From Xanthobacter sp. YC-JY1 (GTDB lineage Bacteria > Pseudomonadota > Alphaproteobacteria > Rhizobiales > Xanthobacteraceae): a stretch of 64,000 nt of DNA. This document shows positions 37,342 to 49,450 of the stretch, in pieces. The stretch covers positions 853,001 to 917,000 of the forward strand of contig NZ_CP032674.1 of NCBI RefSeq assembly GCF_021730305.1, in the 5' to 3' direction. The notes beneath the pieces were generated by a model. It was not told where the DNA came from, ran no database searches, and was given only the letters and a program-made list of their open reading frames with translations. Made by a program: the position numbers and the translations under genes. How positions within the stretch are numbered: position 1 is the stretch's first letter; every line of letters begins with the position of its first letter.

Positions 37342-38421
37342 TCAGCGCGCGCCGATGGACTGCATGACGTGCTTGACCAGCGCCCGCTCGGAGCCGACGC
37401 CGGTCTTGCGATACATGCGCAGCCGGCAGTTCTTGATGGTGCCCTTGCTGAGGCTGAGCTTCTGGGCGATCTCGCCGGTGGTCTGGCCGTTCATCAGCAG
37501 GAGCAGGATCTCCCGCTCGCGCGGCGTGAAGATGCCGAGGGCGTCCTCCAGCAGGCGGTCGGGATCATCAGCAACCCCGCGCTGCGGCGCGTCGAGCACA
37601 TACATGCGCCCGCCGGGGGCGAGCGGAAAATCGCGATCGAAGACCTCCACCTTCACGTTCAGCGGGCCCGAGGCGTGGATCGTCCCGGCCGGCGCCACGC
37701 GCAGGGCCTCCACCGCATCGGCGAGGGCCGGGGCGCGCCGGGCCGCGTCGCGCCAGGCGTCATTGGCGAAGACATCCACGCCGAACCGGTCCTCGATGAG
37801 GGTCGGGCGGGTGATGAAGCCTTCCACCTGCGTCCCGCGCGGGTTGCGCAGGTCGTTGAACAGCGCGCCGAGATGGGAGCGGTGAAAGCCCTCCAGCATG
37901 GGGAAGATCAGCCGCGCCCGCTCGATGTCGGTCTGCGAGAAGCGGCCCGTCTCCCGCTCTAGGAACAGGCCGAAGCAGCAATGGCCGACGGTCGAGAAGA
38001 ACATGCCCAGCTCGTCCGAGATGCTGGCCAGCGTCTGGAACACCTTGTGGTACATGTCCCACGACTGCCCCGGGGAGCTCACGTCGTTCAGCATCAGCAC
38101 GCCGGGGCTGCCATTGTTCTTCCAGTATTCGGAGAACGGGTCCACGGACGAATAGAGGTTGGTGTAGTAGGCGACCACGTCGCTCGCCACATCCTTGGTG
38201 TAGAGCACATCCGGCGGCGCCACGCGCGAATAGCGGATGATCCAGCAGGCATCGTGGTTGATGGCCGCGCCGGCGAGCTCCACCAGTTCCCGGTGGAAGC
38301 GGTCCGAGCCGATCACGCGGGCCACCTCGCCCACGCGCGCGAACCATTCCGGACTGTTCAGGCGCACGGCGCTGTAGCGGGCAGGCTGGGCAGCGGGCCG
38401 GGGTTGATCGGCGTCGACCAT
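37342..38421 (-). CDS. LuxR-type transcriptional regulator
   Basis: A 359-residue protein ending in a clear LuxR/GerE helix-turn-helix (FTPREREILLLLMNGQTTGE then IAQKLSLSKGTIKN). The N-terminal 270 residues contain HDACWIIRYS and FFSTVGHCCFGLFLERE and resemble the sensory half found in several rhizobial LuxR proteins, but no autoinducer-binding domain is recognised. ATG 38421 (MVDADQ) is chosen; a longer form to 38499 would need a TTG start. It lies downstream of the trimethylamine dehydrogenase cluster on the same strand but behind a strong terminator, so it has its own promoter. A role in controlling that cluster is inferred. Confidence 0.82.
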   Translation of the reverse strand: MVDADQPRPAAQPARYSAVRLNSPEWFARVGEVARVIGSDRFHRELVELAGAAINHDACWIIRYSRVAPPDVLYTKDVASDVVAYYTNLYSSVDPFSEYWKNNGSPGVLMLNDVSSPGQSWDMYHKVFQTLASISDELGMFFSTVGHCCFGLFLERETGRFSQTDIERARLIFPMLEGFHRSHLGALFNDLRNPRGTQVEGFITRPTLIEDRFGVDVFANDAWRDAARRAPALADAVEALRVAPAGTIHASGPLNVKVEVFDRDFPLAPGGRMYVLDAPQRGVADDPDRLLEDALGIFTPREREILLLLMNGQTTGEIAQKLSLSKGTIKNCRLRMYRKTGVGSERALVKHVMQSIGAR

Positions 38422-38548
38422 CGCAACATGCCCCAACGGAATCGCCGCTCTCGCAATTCTTCTTGCGGCGAATAAAGCCCAAGCTTCGATGCTTGGCAAT
38501 TCTGGGGGCGGCGCGCAGGGACCATCGTGGGGCTCGCTTCAGAAAAAT

Positions 38549-38570
38549 GGGGCCGGCCGAAGCCGGCCCC
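38549..38570 (-). terminator. Rho-independent terminator ending the trimethylamine dehydrogenase cluster
   Basis: GGGGCCGGC (38549-38557) and GCCGGCCCC (38562-38570) form a 9-bp stem with a 4-base loop. Read on the minus strand it is followed by ATTTTTCT, a good U-tract. It lies about 125 bp after the GcvT-like stop and ahead of the LuxR gene. Confidence 0.85.
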
Positions 38571-38580
38571 AAGGGGAAGG

Positions 38581-38616
38581 GCCGGAGAGCGCGATTGGGA
38601 CGGAACGCTCTCCGGC
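38581..38616. repeat. Second perfect inverted repeat downstream of the GcvT-like gene
   Basis: GCCGGAGAGCG (38581-38591) and CGCTCTCCGGC (38606-38616) are perfect 11-bp arms with a 14-base spacer, between the GcvT-like stop and the terminator at 38549. On the minus strand this stem comes first and the U-tracted terminator second, a tandem hairpin arrangement. It might also serve as a regulator site for the LuxR gene. Confidence 0.6.
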
Positions 38617-47101: not shown

Positions 47102-47190
47102 GTGCTGCTCGCCCTCTGATCTTTTTCTTGGCTGTGCTCGTGCGAATGCCCGTGCCGGCCGAGGGATTGGACCCCGACGACGGCGGGCAT

Positions 47191-47218
47191 GCGGGGCGCG
47201 TGATCTGCCGCGCCCCGC
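47191..47218 (-). other. Stem-loop between trimethylamine dehydrogenase and EtfD-like genes
   Basis: GCGGGGCGCG (47191-47200) and CGCGCCCCGC (47209-47218) form a perfect 10-bp stem with an 8-base loop in the 141-bp gap 47102-47242, with no T-tract. It could protect the upstream dehydrogenase message and set its level above the electron-transfer genes. Confidence 0.55.
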
Positions 47219-47242
47219 CCGCTCTGACCAGGACGAGGGGAA

Positions 47243-49450
47243 CTAGCCCTGGTAGCGGATCTCGTAGGAGCCGCCCGGCTGGTAGGGCGCGCCATAGACG
47301 GCGGACTCGCGCCGGTAGGGCTTGGGCTCCTGCGGGTTCGCCTCTTCGATCTCGCGGGCAAGGCGCTGCCCGTCGAAGGTGGCGTCGGCGATAAGCTTGG
47401 GCGCCCAGGCGTCGCCGATCACGTACACGCCCTTGATGCCGCGGGCATCCCACTCGCCGGAGCGCGCCTTGAGGGCCCGGAACAGGGCATCCTCGGAGCG
47501 GCGGGCGGTGACCAGCACGAGGGTGTCATACTCGTGCCAGGCGTGGGTGGTGTTGGCGCTGCGCGGCATCTTGCCGGGGCCGGTATAGACGCGCTTATGC
47601 CCGTCGCCCCAGAGGTTGTAGAGCTCGATCCGGCCGTCTTCCACGCGGCTCGCCCAGGTGCTGGACAGCACGTTGATGTGCAGCTCGTGCAGCATGCGGT
47701 GCATGTTCGGCGCTTCAAGGGTGAAGTGCATGTAGCGGCCGAGCTCGACACCCGACGCCACCGTCACCTGATGCCCCGCCTCCGCCAGCTTCTGCGCGAG
47801 GCTCGGCGCCATGTAATAGGGGTCGGCATTGAGGATCATCACCCGCTTGCCGATGGGCTTGGTGCCGAGGATCACGTCCTCAGGCGTCAGCACATTGGCG
47901 CGCGGCGTGCCTTCCAGGCCCGGGATGGGGGCGTGGGTGAGGCAGTTGGTGCCGTCGGTGACCCAGTGGGCGCCGGTGGCGATCACCACCTTGTCGGCAC
48001 CGTAGGAGAGCACGTCCTCCACCGAGAGCTTCTTGCCGCCGAGGGCGATCTGGCTGTCGCGGTTGCGCTTCACCAGCTTGTTCAGCTGCACTTCGCGATA
48101 GTCGCGGTGATAGCTCCACTCGCCGAGGCCGGGCAGGGTGGCCACCTCATTCACATAGCCGCCGACCTTATCGGCGCTATCCACGAGATGGACCACATAG
48201 CCGCGCTCCATGAGCACGCGGGCGCACTCGGAGCCGGAGGGGCCGGCGCCCACCACCAGGATGGCATCGTCCGAGCCCTTCTTGGGGAAGCGCTCGGGAT
48301 GCCAGCCGCGGCGGAATTCCTCGCCGGCGGTGGCGTTCTGGGTGCAGATCATGGGCGGGCCGCCGATCTCCCAGCGGGAGATGCAGACGTTGCAGCCGAT
48401 GCAGGTGCGGATGTCGTCGAGACGCCCGTCGCGGATCTTCTCCGGCAGGAAGGGGTCGGCGATGGAGGGCCGCGCGGCGCCGATCACGTCCAGCTCGCCG
48501 TTGCGGATCACCTCGACCATCTTCTCCGGATCGGTGAAGCGGCCGACGCCCAGCACGACCTTCTTCGAGGCCTGCTTCACGAACTTCTGCCAGGAAAGCT
48601 GGTGGCCCTGACGATAGAAGCGGGAGGGACCGGCATCCTCGCCCCACTCGGCAATGTCGCCCACGTTCACGTCCCACAGGTCCACGAGATCGTCGGCCAG
48701 TTCGACGAACTTGAGGCCGTCGCGCTCCACCTCGATGCCGTCCTCGCCGATCAGCGTGTCGACGGCGAAGCGGGTGGCGATGGCGCATTCGGAGCCCACG
48801 GCCGCCTTCATCTGCTCCAGGGTCTCGATCCAGAAGCGGGCGCGGTTCTCGAAGCTGCCACCGTACTTGTCGGTGCGCTTGTTGTAATACTTGGAGAGGA
48901 ACTGCAGCGGCAAATAGGAGTGCGCGCCGTAGCAATAGATGATGTCGAAGCCGGCATCGCGGGCGCGGCGCGCCGCCTCCACGTAGAAGCCCTGCACGCG
49001 ACGGATGTCGTCGTGGTCCATCTCGTGGCAATAGGTGAGGGATTCGAACTCGGAGGCGTACTGGCTCGGGCCGCGCGCGGTCTGGCGCGTCTCCATGCAC
49101 GGGGCATGGGCGCCGCCGTACCACAGCTCGACGCCAGCGAGCGCGCCGTATTTATGGATTTCAGAGGTCATCGCGGCGAGGTTGCGGACGTCGCCCTCGT
49201 CCCAGATGCGGGCGGAGACGCGGTGCGTGTCGTCCGATTCCGGGTGGATGGAGCAGTATTCGGTGTTGAGGGCCGCCCAGCCGCCTTCGGCCTTGATGGA
49301 GCGGTGCGCGGCCTGGAAGCCGGGCTTGTCGGAACCGGCGCCGATGCAGTGCGGCACCTGGTAGAAGCGGTTCCGAAGTGTTTTCGGCCCGATCTTGATG
49401 GGCTCGAAAAGAATATCGTATTTGCTGACACCCAGCGTTTCGTGCGTCAT
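47243..49450 (-). CDS. tmd: Trimethylamine dehydrogenase
   Basis: A 735-residue flavin/Fe-S enzyme with an OYE-type barrel and two nucleotide-binding domains. Against remembered residue numbers of the Methylophilus enzyme, everything fits at +5. C35 is the 6-S-cysteinyl-FMN site. Y65, W269 and W360 form the aromatic bowl; Y174, H177 and D272 the catalytic group. C350, C353, C356 and C369 bind the 4Fe-4S cluster, and Y447 is the ETF-docking tyrosine. Y65, S79 and W110 argue for trimethylamine; the dimethylamine enzyme has Gln, Thr and Phe there. It oxidises trimethylamine to dimethylamine and formaldehyde, passing electrons to ETF. RBS GGGGAG; first gene of the cluster. Confidence 0.92.

Follow-up and report, generated by a model that had tools for sequence, protein, structure and literature searches.

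The window analysed here, a 64,000-nucleotide stretch of the Xanthobacter sp. YC-JY1 genome (NZ_CP032674.1, positions 853,001 to 917,000), holds a cluster of eight intact open reading frames (ORFs), all on the minus strand, at 37342-49450. We read this locus with high confidence as a trimethylamine dehydrogenase (TMADH) operon that would pass the enzyme's electrons to respiration. Trimethylamine is the smell of bad fish, and TMADH is a textbook enzyme known from its Methylophilus structures; here it is placed in an operon whose core gene order recurs at loci of three proteobacterial classes. An earlier preliminary description of this DNA had reported a trimethylamine gene cluster, and the observation is real: the eight ORFs are intact, and family scans are consistent with the assignment of each gene. 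Read from sequence comparison are the identities of the enzyme, its electron transfer flavoprotein (ETF) and the membrane protein EtfD, the gene order, and the other loci. By the same comparison the gene set is common to many bacteria, and the window is a new example of it with a conserved helper, a leucine-rich-repeat-variant (LRV) protein. The parts that merit a second look are this LRV protein, an EtfD without D1 cysteines, and a single-copy operator candidate.

The genes follow one another in the transcription order tmd, etfD, lrv, etfB, etfA, permease, gcvT-like and luxR. The block from tmd to gcvT-like spans 49450-38694 on the minus strand, and luxR lies beyond a terminator-like hairpin. 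The features are as follows (lengths in amino acids, aa).

47243..49450, minus strand: tmd, trimethylamine dehydrogenase, an OYE-family flavoprotein with 4Fe-4S cysteines; 735 aa; assigned by 1djn match, residue signature and tree
44939..47101, minus strand: etfD, membrane ETF:quinone oxidoreductase of EtfD/DgcB type; 720 aa; Pfam CCG and Fer4; 9ojn, 249 bits
43532..44935, minus strand: lrv, leucine-rich-repeat-variant solenoid; 467 aa; Pfam LRV; 1lrv match
42729..43523, minus strand: etfB, electron transfer flavoprotein beta; 264 aa; 1o94 chain C, 294 bits
41758..42729, minus strand: etfA, electron transfer flavoprotein alpha; 323 aa; 3clu and 1o94 chain D, 333 bits
39854..41569, minus strand: permease of the TMAO-permease family, presumed amine uptake; 571 aa, GTG start; NF053774, 877 bits
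38694..39833, minus strand: gcvT-like (DmmD-like) gene, tetrahydrofolate-binding-domain protein, putative formaldehyde trap; 379 aa; Pfam GCV_T and GCV_T_C
38548..38571, minus strand: terminator-like hairpin at the gcvT/luxR boundary; 10-pair stem, 4-base loop, T tail
37342..38499, minus strand: luxR, solitary LuxR-type regulator; 385 aa from a TTG start; C-terminal GerE helix-turn-helix, 48 bits
49644..49663, plus strand: putative operator, perfect 9+2+9 palindrome, 194-213 bp upstream of the tmd start codon

The reaction and electron path are established for these protein families. In the pathway we propose, trimethylamine would enter the cell, probably through the permease, and TMADH would strip one methyl group to yield dimethylamine and formaldehyde. 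Electrons would run from the FMN of TMADH to its 4Fe-4S cluster, to the dedicated ETF, to EtfD and on to the quinone pool, while the GcvT-like protein probably traps the formaldehyde unit on tetrahydrofolate. Dimethylamine would pass to a dimethylamine monooxygenase and methylamine to the N-methylglutamate route; the genes for both lie outside the window, at other places in the genome.

Identity of the dehydrogenase

Tmd aligned with Methylophilus TMADH (PDB 1djn) over residues 10-734 of 735 with 1269 bits and 72.2% identity. Chance is no explanation for the similarity at these scores. The best solved relatives of Tmd were the Methylophilus TMADH entries (1269 and 1265 bits), with histamine dehydrogenase far behind at 534 bits. 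At an offset of +5, which shifts to +6 past a one-residue gap near residue 515, Tmd is identical to TMADH at Cys30, Tyr60, Ser74, Trp105, Tyr169, His172, Tyr174, Arg222, Trp264, Asp267, Cys345/348/351/364, Trp355 and Tyr442. We take Cys30 to be the site of the 6-S-cysteinyl FMN, the four clustered cysteines to be the 4Fe-4S ligands, Tyr169, His172 and Asp267 to be catalytic, Tyr60, Trp264 and Trp355 to form the aromatic bowl, and Val344 and Tyr442 to be ETF docking residues. The preliminary description had all catalytic, cluster and docking residues matching at a fixed offset; this held for the checked catalytic and cluster residues and for Tyr442, and failed at Val344, where Tmd has Thr.

For comparison, 54 loci were assembled, 48 from a genome-collection scan that detects close relatives only and thus samples TMADH loci, and six from plasmids; loose clustering admitted a few distant members, e.g. 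L062. Positions 60, 74 and 105 presumably discriminate TMADH (Tyr/Ser/Trp) from dimethylamine dehydrogenase (DMADH; Gln/Thr/Phe). With tmd frames below 600 aa excluded beforehand and row L080, a wrong frame, disregarded, Tyr60/Ser74/Trp105 was present in 50 of 51 TMADH-group rows including the window, the exception (L020) being a fragment cut at its start. The 11 closest paralogues all carry Gln/Thr/Phe, and seven of them share a locus with a TMADH gene. In a tree of 49 rows, Tmd fell inside a group of 36 (support 100/100) made up of TMADH and dimethylamine-type rows. Two HpbA rows, histamine dehydrogenase 6de6, NdpC and a mycofactocin OYE protein lay outside. Within the group, the dimethylamine-type rows formed a separate group (100/100) and Tmd sat with the TMADH rows. 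Sequence identity, the three-residue signature and tree placement together bear out the earlier naming of the enzyme as a TMADH.

Two other assignments of the enzyme would fit parts of this evidence. Dimethylamine-type enzymes are close (61-65% identity) and can lead the same operon frame, as in L055, so Tmd might itself be a DMADH. We regard this as very improbable, given Tyr/Ser/Trp in the window against Gln/Thr/Phe in 11 of 11 paralogues, and the separate grouping of the dimethylamine-type rows. Just as improbable, in our estimate, is action on another amine such as dimethylglycine, N-methylproline, histamine or a nicotine intermediate. The OYE-type amine dehydrogenase family does include enzymes for such amines, and DgcB, a homologue of EtfD, works in dimethylglycine catabolism according to PMC13083937. 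Against this, the checked active-site residues equal those of TMADH, and HpbA, 6de6 and NdpC lie outside the 36-row group. Grouping with demethylases of other amines had been named beforehand as a check on the TMADH assignment; in this tree, built without DgcA, Tmd did not group with the two N-methylproline demethylases HpbA.

An origin of the dimethylamine-type enzymes from within TMADH is drawn in the 49-row tree, but TMADH formed one group (70/82) with fewer outgroups (28 TMADH, 8 DMADH and 4 outgroup rows), and we do not claim such an origin.

More distant relatives of Tmd were also found. In L010 and L011, from genomes of the same family as the window, a relative with 49% identity adjoins etfD; Thr and Asp replace Tyr169 and His172, Phe replaces Tyr60, and this relative probably has a different substrate or chemistry. 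On a Gemmobacter fulvus plasmid (L089), genes for an APC permease and an aminomethyltransferase flank a relative with 46.7% identity, a pairing that recurs there with some amine as the presumed substrate. Among the Roseobacteraceae/Paracoccaceae loci, L044 and L050 hold TMADH and a dimethylamine-type paralogue together, and in L055 a dimethylamine-type gene leads the same etfD-lrv-etfB-etfA-permease order. In several other loci, a cupin gene adjoins the dimethylamine-type gene.

The gene order is widespread

The core order tmd-etfD-lrv-etfB-etfA was found in Methylophilus methylotrophus (L037), Azoarcus (L012) and Paracoccus aminovorans (L014), and it is the common one in the fetched TMADH loci of alpha-, beta- and gammaproteobacteria. 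The earlier view that such a block is unusual does not survive this comparison. Among the 54 loci, 40 have a permease of the same family, 25 a GcvT-like gene, and 22 at least two of the three dmm genes. These neighbourhood counts are rough and mostly low, as many contigs end within the neighbourhood and frame picking lost some true genes, missing etfB and gcvT even in the window's own row. A second Tmd occurs in 7 of the 54 loci (eight were counted, L063 being one gene in two fragments).

The M. methylotrophus locus shares the core order and differs around it. There, the permease gene precedes tmd, and etfA is followed by three dmm genes; in the window, the permease and GcvT-like genes come after etfA, the dmm genes are distant, and a luxR gene adjoins.

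The dedicated ETF and a D1-less EtfD

The top PDB matches of EtfB and EtfA were the subunits of the Methylophilus ETF, solved together with TMADH in 1o94 (294 and 333 bits), which agrees with the earlier statement that the cluster has its own ETF. Set beside the Methylophilus TMADH/ETF system (1djn, 1o94), the window has 72% full-length identity in the dehydrogenase, the same checked catalytic and cluster residues and a cognate ETF, and differs by Thr in place of Val344.

The EtfD sequence combines one full CCG domain, which includes the D2 ligands, with two 4Fe-4S motifs and five hydrophobic stretches. Its sole solved relative at 1e-5 was 9ojn (249 bits), which is named in a paper on M. smegmatis EtfD (PMC13083937). 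Domains, ligands and this alignment support the earlier assignment to the EtfD/DgcB type of membrane Fe-S protein. Across an alignment of 45 EtfD rows (frames differing by more than 20% in length left out), His77 was conserved in 44 rows and His91, His254 and His272 in all 45.

In the alignment to 9ojn, the positions of the D1 cysteines for the linear 3Fe-4S cluster are occupied by Asp473, Thr508, Asp545 and Ser548. Cys is absent from all four positions in every one of the 45 rows; the residues are Asp, Thr/Asn/Ser, Asp and Ser/Thr, respectively, and both Asp are invariant (45/45). The D2 ligands are retained, His547 included, and the final one, Cys675, is Cys in 15 rows and Asp in the other 30. 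DgcB and FadF likewise have no D1 cysteines, as PMC13083937 reports. The window protein is like EtfD, DgcB and FadF in its five hydrophobic stretches, two 4Fe-4S motifs and D2 ligands, whereas it differs from mycobacterial EtfD in the strict sense, and resembles FadF and DgcB, in having no D1 cysteines.

A conserved LRV solenoid between etfD and etfB

Of the 45 loci in which etfD, etfB and etfA all occur, 41 have the lrv gene placed between the first two, Methylophilus included. The etfD-etfB distance is 1.3-1.6 kb in these 41 loci and 12-110 bases in the remaining L019, L027, L028 and L041. We know of no earlier report that lrv fills this space in every locus where it is found. Of 398 genomes in a phylum sample, two had a match to it at 1e-20, namely its own genome and one with a partial match (75.9 bits); with at most four candidates scored per genome and Tmd not counted in the same set, this shows rarity and not linkage.

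AlphaFold2, run on 31 rows, gave a confident solenoid (mean predicted local distance difference test score, pLDDT, 94.1). The nearest named fold was 1lrv, with a TM-score of 0.57 by target length; the other fold matches were mostly generic alpha solenoids that superposed poorly (TM-scores of 0.12-0.44 by query length among the 50 matches listed). Conserved positions were mostly Asp, Trp, Val, Leu and Arg within the repeats. No Cys was among the listed conserved positions, so the protein has no conserved Fe-S ligands. The Azotobacter LRV protein (1lrv), which presumably carries an Fe-S cluster, shares the LRV solenoid and differs in the N-terminal Fe-S cysteines, which have no counterpart among the conserved positions listed for the window protein and its relatives.

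Judged by the constant place of its gene between these two, LRV may act in the electron chain, but four etfD-etfB-etfA operons lack it. As a speculation that we consider rather unlikely, the dedicated solenoid would hold or assemble the TMADH-ETF-EtfD chain: with EtfD lacking D1, ETF would have to pass its electrons directly to D2, and LRV might be what presents ETF to EtfD. If true, this would be a scaffolded electron-transfer assembly, new for amine dehydrogenases as far as we know. In the open-licence literature, we found no paper linking leucine-rich repeat variants with electron transfer flavoproteins.

The later steps are encoded at other loci

The preliminary description had called the module complete and self-contained. 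This holds only for the first demethylation; the genes for dimethylamine and methylamine sit elsewhere in the genome, in keeping with its remark that a dimethylamine step is not obvious in the window. A dimethylamine locus about 450 kb from the operon holds dmmABC, a dmmD-like gene, a trimethylamine N-oxide (TMAO) demethylase gene (tdm) and a second permease gene. This tdm/TMAO-permease/dmm cluster, at ~1.352-1.362 Mb (L075:8713-17590, L077:993-2123), encodes an HODM-type subunit, a reductase and a DmmA-family protein, with the dmmD-like gene divergent. PF11927 and NF041259 were each matched above cut-off by one gene in the genome, the two lying close together at ~1.352-1.354 Mb. The TMAO demethylase scored 1290 bits (cut-off 1100), and the second TMAO-permease-family protein 848 bits. 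We believe this cluster may serve external TMAO. GmaS is encoded at ~2.049 Mb (688 bits, cut-off 469.6), and the genes beside it carry the domains expected of N-methylglutamate synthase and dehydrogenase, by which we assign them tentatively.

The broad Pfam family PF00743 (FMO-like) gave no match in the genome at E 0.001; it matched in 7 of 14 control genomes, with no tested trimethylamine monooxygenase as positive control. Because no FMO-type gene was found, TMADH appears to be the only recognised entry for trimethylamine, and a trimethylamine monooxygenase route is not apparent from the gene content. This Xanthobacter would spread its trimethylamine pathway across at least three loci. The dmmDABC/tdm/TMAO-permease genes of Methylocella, Ruegeria and Paracoccus aminophilus belong to the same permease and GcvT-like families, and this genome holds a cluster of their type in the dimethylamine locus. 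The first step differs: a dehydrogenase with ETF in the window, against a monooxygenase followed by TMAO demethylase in those systems. No paper in the open-licence literature was found to link TMADH with dimethylamine monooxygenase; two papers on nicotine mention TMADH, DMADH, ETF and a gene cluster together.

Permease and GcvT-like protein

The window permease passed the curated cut-off of the TMAO permease model NF053774 (877 against 690 bits), which places the amine-type permease of the earlier account in the TMAO-permease family; its substrate could be trimethylamine, dimethylamine or TMAO. In trees from which frames below 300 or above 700 aa were left out, it joined a six-row group (98/94) with permeases of alphaproteobacterial TMADH/DMADH loci. 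The second permease of the genome fell in a different group (99/99), with dmm-linked Paraburkholderia permeases and one Zoogloea permease.

The GcvT-like protein has the Pfam domains GCV_T and GCV_T_C, as expected of the folate-binding protein first described, yet scored under the GcvT cut-offs (216.5 vs 300 bits and 190.4 vs 235.85 bits). Its nearest row in the tree beyond Xanthobacter counterparts was the genome's own dmmD-like protein, with forks open; the GcvT rows of the tmd loci L014, L044 and L050 lay on a separate branch (100/100). In Ruegeria, DmmD was needed for growth on trimethylamine, TMAO and dimethylamine as nitrogen source (PMC5520151), and P. aminophilus dmmD mutants did not grow on dimethylamine, with a much weaker effect on trimethylamine (PMC4543880). 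This work proposes a formaldehyde-to-folate role for DmmD. Because this role was proposed for DmmD, we infer by analogy that the window protein probably loads the formaldehyde unit onto tetrahydrofolate.

It is possible, if somewhat unlikely, that the GcvT-like protein is instead a second DmmD serving the distant dimethylamine monooxygenase and not the formaldehyde trap of TMADH. The nearness of the genome's own dmmD-like protein in the tree favours this, and a dmmD gene need not adjoin dmmABC, as in Methylocella (PMC5520151). The genome, however, already has a dmmD-like gene beside its dmm/tdm cluster (L077), and in other loci, e.g. L012 and L014, a GcvT-like gene adjoins tmd although the retrieved sequence contains no dmm genes; that of L014 lies on a different branch of the tree. 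For the TMADH operon as a whole, several observations weigh on the other side. The ETF dock has Thr in place of Val344, although Thr is also found there in many other TMADH-group rows with Tyr60/Ser74/Trp105. The permease model is named for TMAO and not trimethylamine, the TMAO demethylase locus has its own permease so that part of the amine flux may bypass the operon, and dmm-linked GcvT rows stand on both sides of the poorly resolved GcvT tree.

Transcription units and regulation

Spacings within the cluster are short between etfD and lrv (3 bases), lrv and etfB (8) and permease and gcvT (20), and etfB and etfA overlap by one base; longer gaps follow tmd (141 bases), etfA (188) and gcvT (194). 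The hairpin at 38571-38548 has 10 pairs, nine of them G-C, in a region with 8 terminator-like sites against a mean of 4.1 in shuffles. Because this strong terminator-like hairpin comes after gcvT, luxR is probably a transcription unit of its own. A sigma-70-type promoter had no match in the searched region.

Even with 3 mismatches allowed, the window contains no match besides the palindrome at 49644-49663 itself (0 expected). This palindrome is the sole perfect copy in the 5.39-Mb genome, with one further site at 3 mismatches; a reversed control pattern also gave one site. The upstream DNA of five loci of the genus is alike mainly from this 20-bp palindrome onward. The palindrome core is exact in L018, L084 and L085 and has one mismatch in L061, and the same luxR gene is present in all five loci (the window, L018, L061, L084 and L085). 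From this pattern, the LuxR protein is the obvious candidate to bind the palindrome upstream of tmd, and it probably controls the operon through this single site. A single-copy palindrome of this kind is new to our knowledge, and it makes the regulator easy to test. Elsewhere, a NarX/NarQ-like kinase or NarL-like regulator is encoded in 19 of the 54 loci. A candidate operator copy in the dmm/tdm locus was discarded: the 16-bp core matches there once, with 3 mismatches and in the space separating a divergent gene pair, which is at chance level (0.65 and 0.59 expected, for the same site in two overlapping loci).

Spread within the genus

Tmd at 93% identity or more was present in 5 of 14 genomes of the genus, and one more genome had only relatives of 41-43%. 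The window Tmd shares 99% identity with its Xanthobacter aminoxidans counterpart. In the open-licence literature, no paper linking TMADH with Xanthobacter was found. One genome (G145; L084, G145:C1:1028001-1047900) carries the whole eight-gene cluster in the same order at another chromosomal site, far from the counterparts of the window's flanking genes, which we read from their sequences as IclR-like and FIST-like. In another genome (G073), the cluster adjoins the same IclR-like gene as in the window. Gain of the cluster by transfer and its loss are both possible.

Antisense to tmd, an open frame of 643 aa runs at 47534-49465 on the plus strand; this is the usual effect of 69% G+C and not a gene.

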